Positions 1,561 to 21,835 of a stretch of 64,000 nt of DNA are shown here, piece by piece. The notes below the pieces were generated by a model. The model saw only the letters and a list, made by a program, of their open reading frames with translations. It was not told the DNA's origin and ran no database searches. Within the stretch, counting starts at the first letter, position 1, and the number at the start of each line of letters is the position of its first letter. Position numbers and translations under genes: made by a program. Source of the stretch: an uncultured Clostridia bacterium (GTDB taxonomy: Bacteria; Bacillota; Clostridia; Oscillospirales; Acutalibacteraceae); contig CANQBM010000004.1 in assembly GCA_947589575.1 (NCBI GenBank), positions 1-64,000 on the forward strand, read 5' to 3'.

Positions 1561-1587
1561 TAAAATTAAAAAATTGAAGGTGTGTTT

Positions 1588-3274
1588 ATGAACTTTAAAA
1601 ATATTTCTATTAAAAATTTTAGAAATTTTGAAAATATTACAATAGATTTGACAAATAAAAATGTTCTTTTTGGGATGAATGATATCGGCAAAACAAATTT
1701 TCTTTACGCATTAAGATTTATATTTGATAAAGATGTTCGAAGACAAAATTTCAATGATACAGATTATTACAAAAAAGAAGTAGACATGCCAATAGAAATT
1801 ATTATTGCGATTGATATTAGTGATACAGAAGATACCAACAGCCAAAAACTGCGTGCGAAATTAAAAGGAGCGATTCTTTCAAATCAAGATATCGTATATA
1901 TCAAAGCACAAGCTTTCTACAATGAAAAAGAAATGGTTGGTATTCCTATATTATATTGGGGTGGGGATATTGAGGAATTAGAGGAAATGAAAGTTCATGG
2001 TACTTTCTTTGAAATAGACTACATTTTTAATACTATCTATATAGATGCATATGTTGATTTGTATACTCTATTTAAAAAAAAACGCGAATACTTTACTTGT
2101 GAATGATAACGATGATGACAAAGATATTTTAGACAGCATTCACAAAACATGTGAAAACTTGAATGAGCAGATTTCTAGCCTTTCTGGAATAAAAACATTT
2201 GAAGAAAAAATTGAATCTGAGTATAAAAAGTATAGGCATGAAAATGTATCAGTATCAGTAAAATCAGAAATAGCAGTAAAAGGATTATATTCGAATATTG
2301 TTCCATATATAAAACAAAATGATGACGATTCGTTATATCCTACATCAGGTGAAGGGCGAAAAAAATTATTGGTATATGCCATTTTTGATTTGTTATCTAA
2401 AGAGGAAGAAGAAAAGAAAATCAACATATTTTTAATTGAAGAGCCAGAAAATCATCTGCATCGTTCTTTGCAAATTGCATTATCCCATATTTTATTTTTA
2501 GATAATAAATATCAATATTTATTTATGACAACTCATTCGCCGTATGTATTAGCAGAAATGGATCAAGTAAATTTGGTGCGCATATATAATGAGGACAAAA
2601 TTTTAAGTAAAAGTGTGCTTTATTCTGTTCCGAGTAATTTCAAGAGTCAACGCAAAATGTTAAATCGAGGATTAGTTGAAGCAATTTTTGCAGATAAAGT
2701 ATTACTGGTAGAAGGTCCCTCGGAAAGCGTTTTGTTTGGAAAAGTGCTTTCAGAAATTAATCCGTTTTATGAAGCCGATGGAATTTATATATTGTCAGTT
2801 GGTGGTTTCGGCTTTAGACCATATTTTGAAGTTTTAAATGCATTAAATATTGATAACATTATAAAAACAGATAACGACCTAAGAAAAATTAAAGATAAGA
2901 AAAAATATAGTGTACTTGGTTTTATGAGGATTAACAATTTCATTAACAACGAAATATTACCGAATGAGCCAATAGATGAAAATAATGTTGAAGCAAAGAG
3001 AAATTTATATGATTCTAACAAAGATATTTTAGACGAAATTCGACATAAATACGCTTTGTTTTTGTCAAGATGTAGTTTAGAAGAAGATTTAGATGAGGTA
3101 ATTCATGATAAAATGGTTGAATATCTTCCAAATTCAAATGGAGATCCTATAAAATATCTTAAAGACGCAAAAAATAACCATATGGTTGAACTTGTCGAGA
3201 AACTTACACTAGAAGATTGTAAAACAATTTTTAATCATTATAATTTTGAGTGTTTAAAGGAGGTGTTACATTAA
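1588..3274 (+). CDS. gajA: Gabija GajA-like OLD-family ATPase/TOPRIM nuclease, frameshifted at an A9 run
   Basis: First gene of a Gabija-like pair. In characterised systems GajA is a DNA-nicking endonuclease driven by an ABC-type ATPase head and a TOPRIM centre. ATG 1588 has AAGGTG five bases upstream. Walker A GMNDIGKT is at about 29-36. Two frames, 1588-2106 and the +1 frame to 3274, together encode one protein of about 561 residues, close to the 578 of Bacillus cereus GajA. They switch at nine A's (2074-2082); eight would restore the frame. The second part carries the Walker B-like LIEEPE (about 281-286), the H-loop THS (about 314), the TOPRIM VEGPSE (about 374-380) and a DND acidic pair (about 428-430), so no catalytic motif is lost. 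It overlaps the helicase by one base (TAATG). Options are transcriptional slippage, phase variation, a true null allele or a sequence error. Confidence 0.8.
2074..2082 (+). other. A9 homopolymer at the gajA frame switch
   Basis: Nine consecutive A's lie exactly where the N-terminal ATPase frame ends and the frame with the rest of the protein takes over. Runs of this length are known sites of RNA polymerase slippage and of replication slippage in AT-rich bacteria. An assembly error is equally possible. Confidence 0.6.
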
Positions 3275-4788
3275 TGTTGTCGCCTACACAAAAAGATATT
3301 GTTGAGCAATCTGGAAATTTGATAGTCAGAGCAAGTGCGGGTACAGGAAAAACACACACTATGGTGTTTAAAATTATGTATGACATTGAACACCAACATT
3401 CACATAAAGTTGTTGTAGCAATTACATTTACAATCAAAGCTGCTAATGAAATTAAGGAAAGATTAACAATAGACACAAATGACCATTTTATTGGAACAAA
3501 TAATAGTTTTGCAATAGAAGAAATTATAAAACCCTTCATAAAAGATGTGTTTGGAAATACATATAATTTTGATATGAGCACGGATTACTCAGTTAAAGTA
3601 AAATCTTTTGATGAAGGATTAGAAAAATTAAAAGAAGAACAAATTTTATGCTCATATACAAATAGTAAAGAGAACTTTATATTTCAGCTTGCTTTAAAGA
3701 TTTTGAAAAATTCTAAAGCTTGTCAATTATATTTGAAAGCAAAATATTTTAAAATTTATGTCGATGAATATCAAGATTGCGATAAAGATATGCATACTCT
3801 ATTTATGTATATATGTGGAATACTCGAAATAGATACGTTTGTTGTAGGCGATGAAAAGCAGTCAATTTATATGTGGCGTGGTGCATATCCAAGAGCTTTT
3901 ATGCATATTTGGAATAAAAAAGAATTTTCAAAGAAATTCATGAGAGAAAATTTTAGATCTTGTCAACAAATACAAAATTATTCCAACTTGCTATGTAAAG
4001 AAACAAGAGATTTATATAAGCCTATAAAAGATTTATCTTCTATCGTGATAGTATGCACGACAAAGGATAACTGGGTTAAATCAATTATTCCTTATATAGA
4101 TAATAACGAAAAATGTGCATTATTAAGATATAGCAATTCAAATGCTGAATCAGGTGCAAATGAATTAACAGAAATGGGAATGGAGTTTACATATATTCCG
4201 CAAACACCAATTTCGGATATTACAACGGAATCAGCATGGATTTATAATGCTATTGCAAAATACTTTATTATACCTAAATACTCTGTATATGATTTTAGAG
4301 ATGAAATACCAAATGAAGTAAATGGTAATAAAAAAATTCTAAATTATATTAGAAACGCTCTGGCAAAAATAGATGAGAGTATAAACAACAATGATTTAGA
4401 AAAATTTTCAAAACAAATAGAGATCTTGGCTGATTATCTTGGCTATGGAATTAAATTTGAACACTGTAAGAAATTATATACTACTATTTGCGACGAAAAA
4501 TTTCATCCTGCATTTAAAATAGAAGAGTTAAACAATATATCAATTACATTTCATTCATCAAAAGGATTAGAGTTTGATAATGTTATTTTATTTGCTTCTG
4601 ATTATAGTTTGTCAACTGAACAAGACATATATAATCACTATGTAGCTGTGACAAGAGCTAAATCAAAGCTAATTATTGTATATATTAAAAATGATAATTT
4701 TGCGCAACAGTTTGCTAAAAATATTAATAGTATTTTAACTGAATCAAAGCTGAAAATGCGTGATATAGTTACTATAATAAGTGATTGA
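3274..4788 (+). CDS. gajB: Gabija GajB-like UvrD/SF1A helicase
   Basis: Second gene of the Gabija-like pair, 504 residues from ATG 3274 (GajB of B. cereus has 494). A strong AAAGGAGGTG lies 8 bases upstream, so I prefer this to the GTG at 3250. SF1A helicase motifs are all present: Walker A ASAGTGKT (about 20-27), DEYQD motif II (about 164-168), GDEKQSIYMWRGA motif III (about 192-204), NFRS motif IV, HSSKGLEF motif V (about 428-435) and VAVTRA motif VI (about 457-462). The length is short for UvrD or RecB and typical of GajB. In Gabija, GajB binds GajA and senses DNA ends or termini. The one-base TAATG junction implies translational coupling, so the gajA frameshift could also lower GajB output. 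Confidence 0.85.
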   Translation: MLSPTQKDIVEQSGNLIVRASAGTGKTHTMVFKIMYDIEHQHSHKVVVAITFTIKAANEIKERLTIDTNDHFIGTNNSFAIEEIIKPFIKDVFGNTYNFDMSTDYSVKVKSFDEGLEKLKEEQILCSYTNSKENFIFQLALKILKNSKACQLYLKAKYFKIYVDEYQDCDKDMHTLFMYICGILEIDTFVVGDEKQSIYMWRGAYPRAFMHIWNKKEFSKKFMRENFRSCQQIQNYSNLLCKETRDLYKPIKDLSSIVIVCTTKDNWVKSIIPYIDNNEKCALLRYSNSNAESGANELTEMGMEFTYIPQTPISDITTESAWIYNAIAKYFIIPKYSVYDFRDEIPNEVNGNKKILNYIRNALAKIDESINNNDLEKFSKQIEILADYLGYGIKFEHCKKLYTTICDEKFHPAFKIEELNNISITFHSSKGLEFDNVILFASDYSLSTEQDIYNHYVAVTRAKSKLIIVYIKNDNFAQQFAKNINSILTESKLKMRDIVTIISD

Positions 4789-4915: not shown

Positions 4916-4959
4916 CTCTGACTCCGTCATTTAAGGTTTGAATCCTTATACCTCTGCCA
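4916..4959 (+). repeat. tRNA-Gln(CUG) 3'-half remnant, attachment-site copy 1
   Basis: The 44 bases match the 3' part of a bacterial tRNA-Gln: anticodon loop CTCTGAC, 3' anticodon strand TCCGT, T arm TAAGG-TTTGAAT-CCTTA, acceptor strand TACCTCT, discriminator G and CCA. The 5' half (acceptor, D arm, anticodon 5' strand) is absent, so it cannot fold as a tRNA. Such 3' halves are the usual scars left by tyrosine recombinases. The intact gene would lie left of the window. Confidence 0.75.
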
Positions 4960-4960
4960 T

Positions 4961-4993
4961 AGGCTTGGAATTTAGATGATCCAAGCCTTTTTT
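4961..4993 (+). terminator. Terminator behind tRNA-Gln remnant 1
   Basis: AGGCTTGGA (4961-4969) pairs with TCCAAGCCT (4980-4988), followed by T5. It would have ended the original tRNA-Gln transcript and now insulates the Gabija-like block from the next cargo gene. Confidence 0.75.
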
Positions 4994-5013
4994 CTATGAA
5001 AAACAGCCTTAAT

Positions 5014-5147
5014 CCGAAACCGCCCTCAATCTGCTGTAGATTTGAGAGTGATTTTTTCTTTTCTATTTTGTAGAGATTTTCAGAGACCTAAAATGTTTCA
5101 TTTTTAAAAACGAATGAGAGCGACTGGGAGCGTTTAGACAAGAGAAA
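5014..5147 (+). repeat. Post-att conserved block, copy 1
   Basis: This stretch is clearly related to 6818-6962. Shared blocks include CGCCCTCAATCTGCT, GAGATTTTCAGAGACCTA and GAGAGCG...GAGCGTTTA. It contains an imperfect hairpin (CTCAA at 5025-5029 with TTTGAG at 5041-5046) followed by a T-rich run, so it may also terminate. It reads as the conserved left end of related integrated units. The remaining intergenic DNA to 5394 is AT-rich with nothing I can name; a -10 TATAAT sits at 5395-5400. Confidence 0.6.
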
Positions 5148-5423
5148 GAAATATGAATTGTTTTGGTAATTTTTATGATATATAATATAACCACTAATGT
5201 ACATCTTGAAAAAGACAATTATAATGACATATTCTATAGGAAGACCTAAGAGCAATTATGTTTATTAGCTTAATGAAGAAGTTGGATTGAAATTCGGTGA
5301 AACGGTATAAAAAACACAAGACAATGAGAGCAATAATATTAATTCTTTAAGAAAAAGTTGAATGGACACAAAAGTGTTTAATTATTTTTTGCTGTATAAT
5401 TGTAAATAACACACGGGGAGGCG

Positions 5424-6425
5424 ATGATTTTGCCTGACGGAATCATTATCACAGGACTGAACGGTTGTGGAAAATCGACTGTATGCAAATTGCTTGCCAA
5501 AAAAATTAATTACTATAGCATGGATGTTGAAGATTACTATTTTATTGAAAGTGATATACCATATTCAAAATTTCATACTCACGAACAAACTAAAAAACTT
5601 ATGTTGGATGATATTTTAAAACACAATAATTTTGTGCTAGCAACTGTTAATTGTGACTGGGGTGAAGAAATATTGTCTATGTGTAAACTCGCTGTTTTGT
5701 TAAAAGCCCCTCTTGATATAAGAATGGAACGTATAAGAAAGCGTGAATATGAGAAATTCGGAACCAGAGTTTTAAATGGCGGAGATTTATACGAATCACA
5801 GCGTAAATTTCACAATAAAGTTTTATCACGAGGGGAAAAACATATGACAGAGCAGATGCGGTTTGTTGATTGCCCTGTTTTGGAATTAGATGCCACTCTT
5901 CCGATAAATGATATTGTAAATACTATTTTTAAAAAGTGTGAACAGCTAAATATGATTATGAAAGACAGCGAATGTCAATGGTGTAATCTTACACCTCATG
6001 ATAAAAAATGGTTATTGTATGAAACTGAATTTTGGGATATATATTTATCAGACAGGCAAGATTATATTGGACGATGTATTCTTGTATCAAAAAGACATTG
6101 TGGCAGTTTATCTGAATTAAATAATTATGAATGGTTAGATTTGAAAGATATTATTGATGATATAGAAAATGTTATGAAGAAAGTGCTTTCAGCAGATTTG
6201 TGTAATTGGAGTTGTCTTATGAATGATTTTTATAAAAATTCAAATCCAAATCCGCACTTACATATTCATATACGACCACGACTCGGAACGCCCGTCAACA
6301 TAGGTGGCAAAATAATTTCTGATGATGAATTCGGGCATCATTATGATAATTATAAACAAGTTGTGTTAAATGATAAAGAAATTAATATTTTATATAAAAT
6401 ATTGAAATCTGAATTTTCAAAATAA
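5424..6425 (+). CDS. P-loop kinase-HIT domain fusion protein
   Basis: A 333-residue cytoplasmic two-domain protein; the start is ATG 5424 behind GGGGAGG. Residues 1 to about 170 form an AAA_33/nucleotide-kinase-like P-loop domain with GLNGCGKST at 11-19 and an R-rich lid segment (RMERIRKREYEKFG) at about 100-115. Residues about 180-333 form a HIT domain: a CQWC zinc-ribbon-like pair near 184-187, then the histidine triad HLHIHIR with His at about 278, 280 and 282. HIT proteins hydrolyse nucleoside-phosphate bonds (AMP-lysine, ApnA, AMP-DNA). A kinase fused to a HIT hydrolase suggests nucleotide or nucleic-acid end processing, but the substrate is unknown. It is the only gene between two tRNA-Gln remnants. 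A -10 TATAAT at 5395-5400 suggests its own promoter. Confidence 0.8.
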   Translation: MILPDGIIITGLNGCGKSTVCKLLAKKINYYSMDVEDYYFIESDIPYSKFHTHEQTKKLMLDDILKHNNFVLATVNCDWGEEILSMCKLAVLLKAPLDIRMERIRKREYEKFGTRVLNGGDLYESQRKFHNKVLSRGEKHMTEQMRFVDCPVLELDATLPINDIVNTIFKKCEQLNMIMKDSECQWCNLTPHDKKWLLYETEFWDIYLSDRQDYIGRCILVSKRHCGSLSELNNYEWLDLKDIIDDIENVMKKVLSADLCNWSCLMNDFYKNSNPNPHLHIHIRPRLGTPVNIGGKIISDDEFGHHYDNYKQVVLNDKEINILYKILKSEFSK

Positions 6426-6461
6426 TTTTATTTACATAATGTTTGGCATAAAAATTTGAGG

Positions 6462-6481
6462 TAGGGGTGGTTTAAATTCTG
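6462..6481 (+). repeat. Unit-end motif, copy 1 (GGGGTGG repeat)
   Basis: This 20-mer around TAGGGGTGGTT matches 7528-7547 in 18 of 20 positions. Both copies lie just downstream of a cargo gene. Here it is followed by a long hairpin (TCTGCAG...TAATTT with AAATTACTGCAGA, about 6478-6532) and then the second tRNA-Gln remnant. It looks like part of the right end of the integrated units. Confidence 0.5.
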
Positions 6482-6599
6482 CAGTGGTAATTTGCGCATT
6501 TTTAATAAAACCACAAGAAAAATTACTGCAGACATTTGACAGACATCAAAGGTTGAAATATGCCTTCAATTTGGTACATTTTTCAGTCGCCCCCTACCG

Positions 6600-6759
6600 C
6601 TCTGACTCCGTCATTTAAGGTTCGAATCCTTTAGCCGAGCAAGGCAAAGCCTTGCGAACGCCAAGATTCTGCATACGCAGTATGTAGGTTCTTATTATGA
6701 GCAAAGCGAATAACAAGGTTCTGCCTTGCATCGCAAGGCAGGTTTTTTTACCTCTGCCA
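6600..6759 (+). repeat. tRNA-Gln(CUG) 3'-half remnant, attachment-site copy 2, interrupted
   Basis: Bases 6600-6631 match 4916-4947 except one C/T change (T loop TTCGAAT). The expected acceptor end TACCTCTGCCA resumes at 6749-6759. The 117 bases between are an insertion. The copy is therefore a second attachment-site scar later split by a small hairpin element. Confidence 0.7.
6632..6748 (+). mobile_element. Small hairpin-rich insertion inside the tRNA-Gln remnant
   Basis: It has a perfect hairpin GCAAGGC-AAA-GCCTTGC (6639-6655), an internal near-palindrome TGCATAC/GTATGTA, and a terminal hairpin CTGCCTTGC-ATC-GCAAGGCAG (6721-6741) followed by seven T's. The two ends carry the same GCAAGGC core, so the element has inverted-repeat ends and no coding capacity. 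It could be a MITE or REP-like element or a captured terminator cassette. Confidence 0.45.
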
Positions 6760-7048: not shown

Positions 7049-7462
7049 ATGAACATAGAATACAGAACACAAAAAGATTTACCCTGTGATGAATTGTATA
7101 AATTATTTTTAGCAGTCGGCTGGGCAAAGAAAGATACAACTACACAGGAAATAATAGATAATTTTAATATTGGGTTCATTAATTCGACATTTGTTTTTTC
7201 TGCGTGGATTGATGATAAATTAGTTGGATGCGTTAGAGTTTTAAGTGATTTGCATTTTCACTCTGTTATTTACGATTTAGCTGTTTTGCCTGATTTTCAG
7301 AATAAAGGAATAGGTACAGAATTAGTGCAGAAATGTAGAAATGCTTGTGAAAATTCTGAATGGTTAGTACAAACTGATGGGGCAAAAGCTTTTTATGAAA
7401 AAATAGGTTTCAAAGAAAATAAGGATAATTTTCTAACAATTCCTTGTGAATGCTTTAATTAA
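7049..7462 (+). CDS. GNAT-family N-acetyltransferase
   Basis: A 137-residue single-domain GNAT protein; ATG 7049 follows TTGGTGAT and a TATAAT at 7003-7008. The core acetyl-CoA site lies in the segment DLAVLPDFQNKGIGTELV (about 73-90), with the pyrophosphate-binding QNKGIG. The C-terminal AKAFYEKIGF strand-helix is typical. It would transfer acetyl from acetyl-CoA to an amine; the acceptor cannot be told from sequence. It is the cargo after the second tRNA-Gln scar and faces a truncated recombinase across a shared hairpin. Confidence 0.8.
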   Translation: MNIEYRTQKDLPCDELYKLFLAVGWAKKDTTTQEIIDNFNIGFINSTFVFSAWIDDKLVGCVRVLSDLHFHSVIYDLAVLPDFQNKGIGTELVQKCRNACENSEWLVQTDGAKAFYEKIGFKENKDNFLTIPCECFN

Positions 7463-7527
7463 TTACAAATTTAATTTGTTTTCCAAATACATTGAGGTTT
7501 TATATTGTTTGTCAGCAAAATTTGCGA

Positions 7528-7571
7528 TAGGGGTGGTTAAAATTTTGAACCACCCCTACCGTTAGTTTTTT
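7528..7571. terminator. Terminator between GNAT and integrase fragment
   Basis: TAGGGGTGGTT (7528-7538) and AACCACCCCTA (7548-7558) form a perfect 11-bp stem with a 9-nt loop, with T6 at 7566-7571. Its left arm and loop repeat 6462-6481 in 18 of 20 bases, so it is also the unit-end motif, copy 2. Confidence 0.7.
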
Positions 7572-7575
7572 GATA

Positions 7576-7983
7576 TTATTCGTTAACTGCTTTTTGCTGT
7601 TTTTGATTAGCGTATTCGGCTAATCGTTTTCGATTCTGTTCAAATACCTCGTCTACCATATGAGTATAAATTTTTGCTGTTACAGATATATCACTGTGTC
7701 CCATAAGTTCCTTTGCGACATTCAATGGTACTCCTGCTACCTGACAATCGGTGCAGAATGTGTGTCGTAGCAGATAGGGTTCTAAATCTTCGGCTAATGT
7801 AGATTTTGTAATCTGATTTCTGTAAACTGTTGCACCGTTGTAAATGTCCATTTCTCTGCAAAAATTGTGCCAAGCGTGGTAGAAAGCATTTTCATCCATA
7901 GGAAGATTTGGATTCTTACATTTTACAAATACATACTGTTTATTCAAATTTTTAGCCTTGTGTTCACGCAAGGCTTTCCGCAC
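7576..7983 (-). pseudogene. int: Tyrosine recombinase (phage/ICE integrase), C-terminal fragment
   Basis: Only the C-terminal 135 residues of an integrase remain. They include the second catalytic Arg in LLRHTFCT, the GHSD His box and the nucleophile in KIYTHM. The arm-binding and core-binding domains and the first catalytic Arg are missing, so it cannot recombine DNA. A family member is normally 350-400 residues. It lies near tRNA-Gln 3' scars, so it is probably the leftover integrase of the elements that made them. The break is at or just above 7983, where unrelated sequence begins. Confidence 0.85.
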
Positions 7984-8437: not shown

Positions 8438-9378
8438 ATGGATATTCAGTATTTATTTTTTTACAGGAAGTAAGAGAAGCAATCAGTGGGGTTTTTAATG
8501 ATTTCTTTCTGCAAATCAGTGATTTGTCATACGGTATTTTTATATGGATGCTTGCAAGCATAATGTTCTGGGCAGTTAATAAGAAAAGCGGCAGCTTTCT
8601 TTTTTTGAATATCGGCTTTTCAAGATTTTTTATGCAATTATTAAAGCTAACATTCTGCGTTTACAGGCCGTGGATAAAATCCGATAAAATTGTCCCTGTT
8701 GAAACGGCTTCAGGTTATTCTTTTCCAAGCGGTCACAGTGTGACTGCAACGGCAAATTACGGAACAATTATTGAACGCAACAGAAAGCATAAAATGCTGT
8801 GCGTTTTTATGATTATTATGATTTTGCTTACAATGTTTTCAAGAAATTACATAGGTGTTCATACTCCGCAGGATGTGTTGGTAGGCGCTCTGCTCGGAGC
8901 TGTTGTAGTAATATTAGGCTCAAAGGCTTGGGAATGGATTGATAAAAGCAAAAAAAGAGATAATATAATACCTTGTGTTTGCTTGGTTTTCACCGTTTTG
9001 TTCTTGGTATATATATCTCTCAAGACATATCCTATGGACTATGTTGACGAGAAGCTTCTTGTTGACCCGAGTAAGATGATGAAAGACGGCTTTAAAGATG
9101 CAGGCAGATTTCTCGGTGTTACAATAGGATGGTTCTTGGAAAGAGAGTTTGTAAGATTTACTCTTAATGTAACGGCAGTTCAAAAGGCAACAAGATGCTG
9201 CTTTGGCGTTTTGCTGATTATATTCTACGAAAATGCCTTTATGCCGATGATAACGGAAGCAATAAGTTCATCGTGGATAAGCTTTGCTTTAACATTTTTT
9301 GAATTGATACTTCTTATGGTAATCTATCCGCTATGTTTCTCAAAAATCGAATCAATGAGGAAAATAAAAAAAGCCTAA
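8438..9378 (+). CDS. PAP2-family membrane phosphatase, frameshifted in a T7 run
   Basis: Integral membrane phosphatase of the PAP2 superfamily, which dephosphorylates lipid pyrophosphates or phosphatidate at the membrane face. The true start is ATG 8438 behind AAGGAGAATTTT. That frame stops after 11 codons; adding one T to the run at 8456-8462 joins it to the long frame, giving about 313 residues. All three catalytic motifs are present: KLTFCVYRP (about 69-77), PSGH (about 96-99) and SRNYIGVHTPQD (about 135-146). Several hydrophobic helices follow. Read without the T, the first usable start would be near 8524 and would drop the conserved N-terminal segment. Confidence 0.8.
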
Positions 9379-9463
9379 GCATTTAAACAATTAATAATAC
9401 AAAAAAATCATAATCATCAGTTGATTAAACTGGTGATTCTGATTTCAGTTTATTGAAAAAGGT

Positions 9464-9485
9464 CCAGCGAAAAGCTGGGCTTTTT
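9464..9485 (+). terminator. Terminator of the PAP2 gene
   Basis: CCAGC (9464-9468) and GCTGG (9474-9478) pair around GAAAA and are followed by a T5 tract. A weaker stem, AATCATCAG with CTGGTGATT, lies just upstream. Confidence 0.6.
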
Positions 9486-9492
9486 GTGTAAA

Positions 9493-9669
9493 TTTGGTAA
9501 AACGGAAGCGGTGGTAGAAGGGAAAGAAAACCGCGAACAAGTGGAAACATTCAGCATAGAGGAATTTGTACCGTCAGATCATATATTGAGGAAAATAGAC
9601 AGTGCAGTAGATTTTACATATATATACGATATAGTATCCTTGACAGTTTGTATACTCTTGCAAAAGTAA
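9493..9669 (+). pseudogene. IS1182-type transposase, N-terminal scrap
   Basis: About 50 residues match the opening of IS1182/IS1380-type transposases: a segment of the form EEFVPSDHILRKID followed by AVDFTYIYDIV. The DDE catalytic core is absent and unrelated sequence follows. There is no ribosome site. It is an insertion-sequence relic between the PAP2 and LysR genes; I could not find matching terminal inverted repeats. Confidence 0.6.
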
Positions 9670-9748
9670 CTATTGTGTCAATATTTTTCTTTTCTTCTAA
9701 TTTCGTATATGGTAAAATGAATTTATAAACGGACAAGGAAGTGATGTT

Positions 9749-10654
9749 ATGTATAATCCCCAGCTTGAAACATTTATTAAGGTTGCAGATGCAGGCAGCT
9801 TTAATAAAGCAGCAGAGAAAATGTTTATAACGCCAACCGCTGTAATCAAACAGATCAATCTGCTTGAGAGCAGCCTTGACCTAAAGTTGTTTGAACGAAC
9901 ACACAGAGGGCTTACTCTGACAAACCCGGGCATATCTATTTATAATGATGCAAAGTATATCATTCAGTACAGCGGTGAATCTATACAGCGTGCAAGAAAG
10001 GCTGCAGAAAGCACCTCAAATGTAATCCGTATTGGAACATCACCAATGACTCCTACGCAAATTCTTGTTGACTTATGGCCTGAAATTCACAAGCTTTGCC
10101 CTGATATAAAATTTCAGCTTATTCCATTTGAAAATACACCCGAAAATGCGAGAGAAATATTAAAAAATCTTGGACAGAACATTGATATTGTTGCAGGAAT
10201 ATTTGATGAAACCATGTCCAATTTAAGACAATGCAAGGGCTTTGAGCTTTTCAAGGTTCCGATCTGTTGTGCTGTATCCCTTAATCATCCGCTAGCAGTA
10301 AAGGATAAGCTATTCATTCGTGATTTATATGGTGAAAATCTTATGCTTATGCACAGGGGTTGGAGCAATTATGTTGATAAACTTCGTGATGATATATGGA
10401 CTAACCATAACAAGATAAACATTGTTGATTTTGATTTTTACAGCGTAGAGGTATTCAATCAATGTCAGAACAGTAATGATATACTTATGGCGATAGATGC
10501 ATGGAGCAGTGTGCATCCGCTTTTAAAAATTATTCCTGTTGAATGGGAACATACCATTCCGTATGGTCTGCTCCATTCAACGCATCCAAGTGACAATGTA
10601 AATAAACTGTTGAATGCAATTCAGATTGTTTTAGAAAGCAAAAACAAGTTATAA
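9749..10654 (+). CDS. LysR-family transcriptional regulator
   Basis: A 301-residue LysR-type regulator, the usual size. ATG 9749 follows AAGGAAGTGATG. Residues 1-60 form the winged HTH (TFIKVADAGSFNKAAEKMF, then a recognition helix ending in FERTHRGLTLT). The rest is a substrate-binding-protein-like effector domain. It lies directly upstream of the redox cluster in the same direction, separated by a terminator, and is the likely regulator of that cluster. The inducer cannot be read from sequence. Confidence 0.9.
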   Translation: MYNPQLETFIKVADAGSFNKAAEKMFITPTAVIKQINLLESSLDLKLFERTHRGLTLTNPGISIYNDAKYIIQYSGESIQRARKAAESTSNVIRIGTSPMTPTQILVDLWPEIHKLCPDIKFQLIPFENTPENAREILKNLGQNIDIVAGIFDETMSNLRQCKGFELFKVPICCAVSLNHPLAVKDKLFIRDLYGENLMLMHRGWSNYVDKLRDDIWTNHNKINIVDFDFYSVEVFNQCQNSNDILMAIDAWSSVHPLLKIIPVEWEHTIPYGLLHSTHPSDNVNKLLNAIQIVLESKNKL

Positions 10655-10678
10655 CCCAAAGGTATAAACTGCGTAGCT

Positions 10679-10710
10679 AATCGAGACTTCTTCCAAAGTC
10701 TCGATTTTTT
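10679..10710 (+). terminator. Terminator of the LysR gene
   Basis: AATCGAGACTT (10679-10689) pairs with AAGTCTCGATT (10695-10705), followed by a T tract. A -10 TATAAT at 10711-10716 begins right after it, with no good -35, as expected for an activator-dependent promoter of the next gene. Confidence 0.8.
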
Positions 10711-10746
10711 TATAATGTAATTGTAAAGACATACGGAGGTTATGTT

Positions 10747-11916
10747 ATGAATAATTTTATTTTTGAAAATGCAACAAAAGCAATTTTCGGAGAAGGCTGT
10801 GTAAAGGAATATCTGAATTGCCTTTTAAACGGCTATGGTGACAATGTAATGCTTGCATACGGCGGCGGCTCAATAAAGAAAAACGGCGTTTATGATGAGG
10901 TTGTTGCCATTCTTCAAAGTGCAGGCAAAAACATTATTGCGTTTTCAGGCATTATGTCAAACCCAACTTATGCAAAGGTGCTTGAAGGTGCAAGGCTTGC
11001 AAAGGACAACCATGTAGACTTAATTCTTGCGGTAGGCGGCGGTTCTGTTATGGATTGCTGCAAAGCGGTTTCGCTCGCTGCAAAATATGACGGTGATCTT
11101 TGGTCTGATTTCTGGGCACAGGCAGGAATTATTGATTTTGAGCCTGTTCCTCTTGGAATAATCGTTACAGCATCAGGCACAGGCAGTGAAATGAACGGCG
11201 GTGCTGTTATAACAAATGAAGATTTGAAAATCAAAACAGGCAGGGATTATCCGAAACTGAATGCTAAATTTGCGTTGCTTGATCCGACATATACCTACAG
11301 TGTTCCGAAAAGACAAATGGTTTCAGGTGCTTTTGATACACTTTCTCATATTATGGAAATTTATTTCAGTGCACCTGATGAAAATAATGTATCAGACGAT
11401 ATTTCAGAAGCATTGATGAAAAATACAATTACAAACCTTCGTGCTGCTATTGTGAATCCTGAAGATTATACTGCAAGAAGTAATTTAATGTGGGATGCAA
11501 CTATGGCAGAAAACAGAATTATCAAGCTTGGCAAAAAAATGGATTTTGAATGCCATAATATTGAGCATCAGATGGGTGCTTTTACAAACTGTAATCACGG
11601 TGAAGGCTTGGCAGTTATTCACCCTGTTTATTACCGTCATATTGTGAATGAAGGCAAAATAAAATTGGCACGCTTTGCAAAAAATGTTTGGGGTATTGAT
11701 GATAACGGCAAAACTGAGCTTGCGCTTGCAAATGCAGGCATTGATGCACTGGCTGATTTTGTCAAAGAAATCGGTATGCCGACAACACTGAGAGAAATCG
11801 GCTTTGATGAAAACACAGATTTAAAGGCAATTGCTGATTCCTGCGGTATTTCACAGGGCAGCTATAAAAAGATGACACACGAAGAAATTTTAGAGATCTT
11901 AAAAGAATGTTATTAA
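10747..11916 (+). CDS. Iron-containing alcohol dehydrogenase, NADPH-type (YqhD/BdhA-like)
   Basis: A 389-residue cytoplasmic group III alcohol dehydrogenase that reduces aldehydes to alcohols with NAD(P)H. The Rossmann-like GGGS motifs are at 39-42 and 97-100. The metal ligands read as D197, H201, H270 and H284, with H274 as the nearby catalytic His; spacing matches FucO and YqhD. ATG 10747 follows ACGGAGGT. It heads a cluster of flavodoxin, ferredoxin and aldo/keto reductase genes under a LysR gene, which suggests reactive-aldehyde handling or reducing-power disposal. Butanol-type substrates are typical of the family but not proven here. Confidence 0.9.
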   Translation: MNNFIFENATKAIFGEGCVKEYLNCLLNGYGDNVMLAYGGGSIKKNGVYDEVVAILQSAGKNIIAFSGIMSNPTYAKVLEGARLAKDNHVDLILAVGGGSVMDCCKAVSLAAKYDGDLWSDFWAQAGIIDFEPVPLGIIVTASGTGSEMNGGAVITNEDLKIKTGRDYPKLNAKFALLDPTYTYSVPKRQMVSGAFDTLSHIMEIYFSAPDENNVSDDISEALMKNTITNLRAAIVNPEDYTARSNLMWDATMAENRIIKLGKKMDFECHNIEHQMGAFTNCNHGEGLAVIHPVYYRHIVNEGKIKLARFAKNVWGIDDNGKTELALANAGIDALADFVKEIGMPTTLREIGFDENTDLKAIADSCGISQGSYKKMTHEEILEILKECY

Positions 11917-11935
11917 TTTATAAGGAGTTTGAGTT

Positions 11936-21608: not shown

Positions 21609-21684
21609 GGGCGCGTAGCTCAGTTGGGAGAGTGCTGCATTCGCATTGCAGAGGTCGAGGGTTCGACTCCCTTCGTGTCCACCA
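21609..21684 (+). tRNA. tRNA-Ala(CGC)
   Basis: The 76 bases fold as a full cloverleaf: acceptor GGGCGCG with CGTGTCC (two G-U pairs), D arm GCTC...GAGT, anticodon arm CTGCA-TTCGCAT-TGCAG, 5-base variable loop, T arm GAGGG-TTCGACT-CCCTT, discriminator A and encoded CCA. Anticodon CGC reads GCG, alanine. Confidence 0.95.
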
Positions 21685-21714: not shown

Positions 21715-21835
21715 CTATGCAAAAGACGCTTCTGTGTTTAAGCCTGCCGTTATTTTAAAAGCCCGGCTTGATGTGAGAATGAAACGAAATGAGTATCGCG
21801 AATATGATAAGTTTGGTAACAGTATCTGCCAGGCG
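21712..21835 (+). pseudogene. Scrap of a P-loop kinase related to the kinase-HIT protein
   Basis: A frame straight after the tRNA-Ala terminator contains VILKARLDVRMKRNEYREYDKFG. It aligns with the lid segment of the kinase-HIT gene (VLLKAPLDIRMERIRKREYEKFG, its residues about 92-114), with the K-A-x-L-D-x-R-M core and E-Y-x-K-F-G end shared. Neither the P-loop nor the HIT domain is present and there is no start. It shows a second copy of this family once stood next to another tRNA. Confidence 0.6.

Follow-up and report, generated by a model that had tools for sequence, protein, structure and literature searches.

A kinase–HIT hydrolase fusion gene between two tRNA-Gln ends in an uncultured Clostridia bacterium: a candidate cargo gene of integrative elements

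The kinase–HIT gene and its two domains

The window analyzed here is a stretch of 64,000 nucleotides (nt) from an uncultured Clostridia bacterium of the gut, family Acutalibacteraceae (positions 1 to 64,000 of CANQBM010000004.1, assembly GCA_947589575.1). In our numbering of genomes (G), contigs (C) and fetched loci (L), it lies on contig C4 of genome G000, of which C6 is another contig. Our subject is an intact open reading frame (ORF) of 333 amino acids at 5424-6425 on the plus strand, which starts with ATG and joins a P-loop kinase in frame to a HIT hydrolase. The initial annotation had described such a fusion, with GxxGxGKST, CxxC and a complete HxHxH, as the sole cargo between two att scars beside Gabija, and this description holds. 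The Walker A motif GLNGCGKST occupies residues 11-19, the CxxC pair is C184/C187, and the triad H278-x-H280-x-H282 keeps all three histidines; the scars are 3' halves of tRNA-Gln(CTG), and PADLOC recognizes GajA and GajB upstream. The gene comprises the following features:

5395..5400 and 5415..5421, plus strand: TATAAT box and ribosome-binding site GGGGAGG, read from the sequence
5424..5957, plus strand: kinase half, residues 1-178, with the Walker A codons at 5454-5480 (Pfam AAA_18, PRK06217 below cut-off, predicted AK6/NMP-kinase-type fold; NMP, nucleoside monophosphate)
5964..6422, plus strand: HIT half, residues 181-333, with CxxC at 5973-5984 and HxHxH at 6255-6269 (alignment, profile, predicted fold)

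The TATAAT box is absent from the consensus hits of the promoter scan. All 333 codons are free of stops and frameshifts, and in the alignments the window protein retains the 17 of 17 columns that are invariant among the 25 other kinase rows and the 22 of 22 that are invariant among the 18 other HIT rows.

The profile search and structure prediction of each half, which had been proposed as checks, returned an AAA_18/AK6-type kinase and a HIT-type fold. Pfam AAA_18 matches residues 7-111 (E 3e-14) and PRK06217 (NF004861) matches residues 7-174 (E 4e-32), the latter at 111.1 bits and hence below its cut-off of 203; a limited search of the open-access literature found nothing relevant to PRK06217. 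The best solved-structure matches of the predicted kinase half include hCINAP/AK6, Fap7, adenylate kinases and UMP/CMP kinases; no polynucleotide kinase is among the 50 matches listed, which does not exclude such a fold. With both a Walker A motif and a predicted AK-type fold, the N-terminal domain is modeled as NMP-kinase-like, of the AK6/adenylate kinase fold, with a predicted NMP substrate. It resembles the small AAA_18/PRK06217 kinases (AK6/CINAP/Fap7-like) in motif, in fold and in the match over residues 7-174, and differs from them in scoring under the PRK06217 cut-off and in being fused to HIT. Comparison with its nearest relative (G022) gave a dN of 0.05 and a dS of 0.68 (20.5 nonsynonymous and 46.5 synonymous differences) and so shows purifying selection on the kinase half.

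The HIT half matches Pfam PF01230 with an E-value of 0.004 and 18.2 bits, under the gathering cut-off of 21.5, which is a curators' threshold and not a structural feature; its homologue in G074 clears this profile at 23.0 bits. When a 19-sequence profile of the family was compared with solved structures, the best HIT protein match reached E 7.5e-14, and both the profile and the fold predicted from the HIT half alone gave HIT proteins, the Ap4A phosphorylase Rv2613c, FHIT and GalT as best matches. The triad is present in 19 of 19 aligned HIT rows, and on the strength of the predicted fold the half is a complete HIT domain. Its group shares HxHxH and the fold with the HIT superfamily (HinT, FHIT, Ap4A hydrolases and phosphorylases) and departs from it in SCLMN-like and DxEFxHHY-like motifs, in the N-terminal kinase and in the low Pfam score. 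The subfamily appears narrow, because only one of 398 genomes across the phylum, the window's own, matched at 1e-20; the order scan found eight further genomes. NitFhit (1ems), which appears among the structure matches of the HIT half, likewise has its HIT domain within a bifunctional chain, with a nitrilase-type partner where the window protein has a kinase.

The tRNA-Gln ends and the integration hotspot

The unit that holds the gene and the unit next to it are made up as follows:

4916..4959, plus strand: att copy 1, the 3' 44 nt of tRNA-Gln(CTG) through CCA, with one mismatch to the C6 copies
4971..5150, plus strand: conserved left-end sequence of integrating elements; 16 of the 80 genomes of the genus, this one among them, have a match, in many cases directly 3' of an att copy
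6414..6481, plus strand: arm-like direct repeat AGGTAGGGGTGG, which shares 74% identity with 7480-7547
6600..6631, plus strand: first part of att copy 2 (repeat match)
6632..6749, plus strand: about 118 nt with terminator-like stems, inserted into att copy 2
6750..6759, plus strand: last part of att copy 2, ACCTCTGCCA, read from the sequence
7049..7462, plus strand: GNAT acetyltransferase (Pfam), cargo gene of the next unit
7480..7547, plus strand: second copy of the arm-like repeat, adjoining the integrase remnant
7576..7983, minus strand: C-terminal fragment of a tyrosine integrase (Pfam Phage_integrase, E 1.9e-13), with 80-82% DNA identity to the C6 integrase regions

The 32-nt stretches at 4916-4947 and 6600-6631 share 97% identity, and a 26-nt att core, searched with up to 3 mismatches, occurs twice in the window but in none of 100 shuffled sequences. 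Between the two copies the kinase–HIT gene is the only ORF of at least 80 amino acids, and there is no integrase or relaxase ORF. The insert stretch 6630-6745 has no second copy in the window genome; the att copies of G028, G005 and G031 likewise change after CCTT, as does the split copy 2.

The right end of the unit (6419-6631), which takes in most of the first arm-like repeat, is 83% identical, over 218 nt, to the right end of an element on contig C6. That contig carries an intact tRNA-Gln(CTG), a further copy 16.7 kb downstream, integrases (one of them full) and a MobA-type relaxase, and the arm repeat is found on it next to the integrase and again at the right end. Since these two copies have the same orientation, a deletion between them would leave a unit like that of the kinase–HIT gene. 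The gene may thus once have occupied the slot between att and integrase, until recombination of the two direct arm repeats deleted the integrase and relaxase and thereby stranded it between two tRNA-Gln ends. The duplicated tRNA 3' end and the tyrosine integrase and MobA-type relaxase of C6 are features of integrative and mobilizable elements at tRNA genes, from which the kinase–HIT unit differs in having neither enzyme itself. A limited search of the open-access literature found nothing relevant to tRNA-Gln elements.

Judged by their att copies, C6 and C4 are likely neighbors. For the flank to the right of the island (8500-11920), 36 of 80 genomes, this one among them, gave a match of some kind; contiguity of the two contigs stays unproven because the long matches to this flank lie, by eye, on contigs other than those with att copies, one 29-nt match in G074 being about 0.55 kb from the att copy of that genome.

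Across the genus, the tRNA-Gln 3' motif was matched in 52 of 80 genomes, mostly once, as the tRNA itself would give, and in 18 of the 80, this one among them, the 3' half occurs two to six times, counts that vary with assembly quality and may include further tRNA genes. We surveyed 30 att copies from 20 fetched regions, two C6 regions and the window, inspecting up to eight ORFs within 4.5 kb. Of the 30 copies, 11 are accompanied by a minus-strand integrase of this family, with at least one cargo ORF between in nine cases and none in two; the other 19 have no such integrase in the ORFs inspected, some because the sequence ends. Cargo found in this slot in the window genome comprises CrcB and GNAT, both identified by Pfam, and a protein judged by eye to be of SEC-C type. 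These comparisons mark tRNA-Gln as a hotspot of integration at which cargo genes are lodged between att and the integrase.

Related kinases are also found behind other tRNA genes. In G025 the kinase follows tRNA-Ser(GGA), with a 73% identical left-end sequence between the two, and the window itself holds a second case:

21725..21829, plus strand: remnant of a second kinase gene of the family (E 1.7e-4), 40 nt 3' of tRNA-Ala(CGC) at 21609-21684

A same-strand tRNA within 700 nt upstream was present for 6 of 88 kinases and 4 of 485 other ORFs (p 0.0014), compared with 1/88 and 12/485 for any other placement within 700 nt; the kinases came from all loci (5 of 93, lacking 700 nt upstream, were dropped) and the control ORFs from L033-L083 only. 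Of the links to tRNA and defense genes for which a neighborhood survey had been proposed, this supports the former; the latter found little support, as described below.

Two further loci concern relatives of the HIT half. A bacteriophage-labeled record (L157, MT835870.1, 'Bacteriophage sp.') encodes a relative with 52% identity together with, by eye, a relaxase, a MobC-like protein and a very large helicase, and looks like a mobilizable element. On contig C11 (L090, 7102-7320), about 2 kb 3' of a tRNA-Met, lies the remnant of a second HIT gene, which by eye closely resembles the G048 HIT protein.

Rarity of the fusion and partners of each half

Four overlapping genome scans, each counting the window genome, found a match in 37 of 148, 47 of 394, 30 of 391 and 13 of 80 genomes, and both halves in one open frame in the window genome only; in the other genomes the halves occur apart. 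In G022, G155, G340 and G368 the kinase and HIT proteins are encoded by separate genes on different contigs. A match over residues 9-217 in G473 turned out to be a separate, distant kinase followed by a stop and by a second gene, NUDIX-like by eye, which begins 9 nt after the kinase. In one set of relatives, the match at each of 51 loci is confined to the kinase half. Among 50,697 phage records one matches (the HIT half), as do 12 of 72,556 plasmid records (the kinase half), and none spans both; a pattern scan of IMG/VR gave two hits, neither confirmed, and no related viral locus. In one set of fetched loci, L059 is the only one, besides that of the window, with both genes, which lie 0.85 kb apart, the HIT gene being cut by the contig end. 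A limited search of the open-access literature found no kinase–HIT fusion, in line with the initial annotation, to which no named family with this order was known; both families are themselves already known.

Other fusions join the same parts to other enzymes. Kinase–dUTPase fusions occur at L039, L040 and L041 (confirmed by Pfam at L039 and L041), and L045 has by eye the same parts, but with the kinase over two frames. The kinase is further joined to NUDIX (L130), to an AadA-type nucleotidyltransferase (L122), to a radical SAM domain (L071) and, in a GrpB–pyrophosphatase–kinase chain, to two partners (L143). In G039 a NUDIX–HIT chain, whose HIT part was recognized by alignment and not by Pfam, is followed by a HAD gene; its upstream ORFs are MazG-like and deoxyribosyltransferase-like by eye, with no Pfam or NCBIfam match. 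Through the chains of L130, G039 and the window, kinase, HIT and NUDIX are linked pairwise, with one genome per pair.

Gene neighbors are given as raw counts. The 76 immediate neighbors of related kinases (loci L033-L083) include GNAT (6/76), APH (2/76), YfbR 5'-deoxynucleotidase (2/76) and nucleoside phosphorylase (2/76); the last two adjoin the dUTPase fusions and are therefore not independent of them. The HIT relatives were represented by 36 hand-picked neighbors (35 of 67 listed and one from another set of fetched loci), of which three are HAD, two MazG and one further is NUDIX.

Proposed function and alternatives

We favor, with confidence slightly better than even, the reading that the kinase–HIT gene is cargo of tRNA-targeted integrative and mobilizable elements and encodes a bifunctional nucleotide-processing enzyme. 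The two halves probably process or detoxify nucleotides rather than broken DNA or RNA ends. With H280, the middle histidine of the triad, the HIT domain would attack a dinucleoside polyphosphate or a nucleotide conjugate and release an NMP; the kinase would then phosphorylate this NMP to the diphosphate at the expense of ATP. In such a two-step salvage or detoxification, a single chain could bring nucleotides that are damaged, toxic or stored back into the pool. We propose these reactions because of the two folds and their partners. Of the two-step nucleotide reaction suggested by the initial annotation, nucleotide processing on one chain is retained, and its analogy to end healing by PNKP/aprataxin is not.

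A rather unlikely alternative is that two adjacent cargo genes were joined by chance read-through, or by an assembly error, without a new function, which would be compatible with either enzyme activity. The fusion is known from one genome only, the end of the G022 kinase falls only a few codons from the point where the halves join, and since the two genes of L059 are as close as 0.85 kb, a deletion could fuse such a pair. Against this stand the uninterrupted 333 codons with all invariant residues of both domains kept, the plausible ribosome-binding site upstream, and the purifying selection on the kinase half, a test confined to that half since the HIT half has no near relative.

Among functional alternatives the strongest is nucleotide-antibiotic detoxification, in which the protein would inactivate a nucleotide-type or aminoacyl-nucleotide antibiotic or toxin, while the kinase would modify either the drug or the nucleotide set free. 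According to one study, the HIT hydrolase MccH inactivates microcin C, and HIT hydrolases do confer resistance of this kind (PMC7157772). MccH belongs to the same superfamily, and similar nucleotide phosphoramide chemistry may be possible for the window protein; according to the same study, however, a lysine replaces the third histidine of the MccH triad, where the window protein keeps H282, and membership in MccH was rejected on this ground (PMC7157772). The position of the gene as mobile cargo next to a unit carrying GNAT, the AadA-type fusion of a related kinase, and the GNAT and APH genes among kinase neighbors are consistent with detoxification, whereas NUDIX, dUTPase, MazG and YfbR, as partners, suggest that the substrates are ordinary nucleotides, and no antibiotic cluster was noticed among the neighboring ORFs, though no search was aimed at one. 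On balance we consider this role unlikely.

A role in anti-phage defense, with kinase and hydrolase altering or destroying nucleotides or signals during infection, seems less probable still. The PADLOC model VakA matches the kinase half over nearly its full length at E 8e-10, a value for which the model cut-off is not given and which small kinases in general could reach; literature searches on the name VakA turned up only papers that seemed to have no bearing on it. Islands of this type harbor Gabija (in the window), a pair of ThsB-like proteins (on C6) and genes of CBASS (in G057). The tRNA-Gln hotspot carries defense systems, yet related kinases rarely adjoin defense genes: only 1 of their 76 immediate neighbors matched PADLOC at 1e-10, and the IMG/VR scan gave no related locus.

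In eukaryotes PNKP and aprataxin are separate proteins, and aprataxin has a zinc finger with cysteines C-terminal to its HIT domain. That a single chain unites a P-loop kinase with an AMP-type hydrolase does recall nucleic acid end healing in their manner, but such a role is very improbable given the predicted AK6/NMP-kinase-type fold, the lack of any cysteine after residue 264 (the triad being at 278-282) and thus of an aprataxin-type finger, and the nucleotide hydrolases among fusion partners and neighbors.

The favored reading, a nucleotide-processing cargo gene, could be extended to a set of exchangeable kinase, HIT and NUDIX modules, fused in pairs for detoxification or editing of nucleotide conjugates, riding in the att-proximal slot of elements that target tRNA genes and perhaps acting on nucleotides derived from phages or competitors; we offer this as speculation that is doubtful as a whole. 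Together, the kinase–HIT, kinase–NUDIX and NUDIX–HIT chains connect three families of enzymes in a single nucleotide pathway that is open to testing. A hotspot at which elements leave single cargo genes may, moreover, be a simple route by which metabolic and defense genes gather beside tRNA genes in gut Clostridia.

The Gabija genes upstream of the unit are arranged as follows:

1582..3274, plus strand: GajA over two overlapping frames, 1582-2106 and 2045-3274 (PADLOC PDLC00081, E 2e-69 and 5e-157, searched apart)
3250..4788, plus strand: GajB, intact-looking (PADLOC PDLC00122, E 5e-184)

The split of GajA over two overlapping frames points to a probable defect in this Gabija copy or to an error in the assembly. 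Further upstream, 85-1560 encodes an AAA_14/DUF4143 ATPase that matches the candidate defense family PDC-S01 (E 1e-105). On contig C6 (L089, 9302-10728) the ThsB-like proteins are encoded by two adjacent TIR genes, with no ThsA recognized there by eye, and in G057, another species of the genus, CBASS cyclase, E1-E2 and JAB genes lie inside a tRNA-Gln island (L195, 14391-18114).
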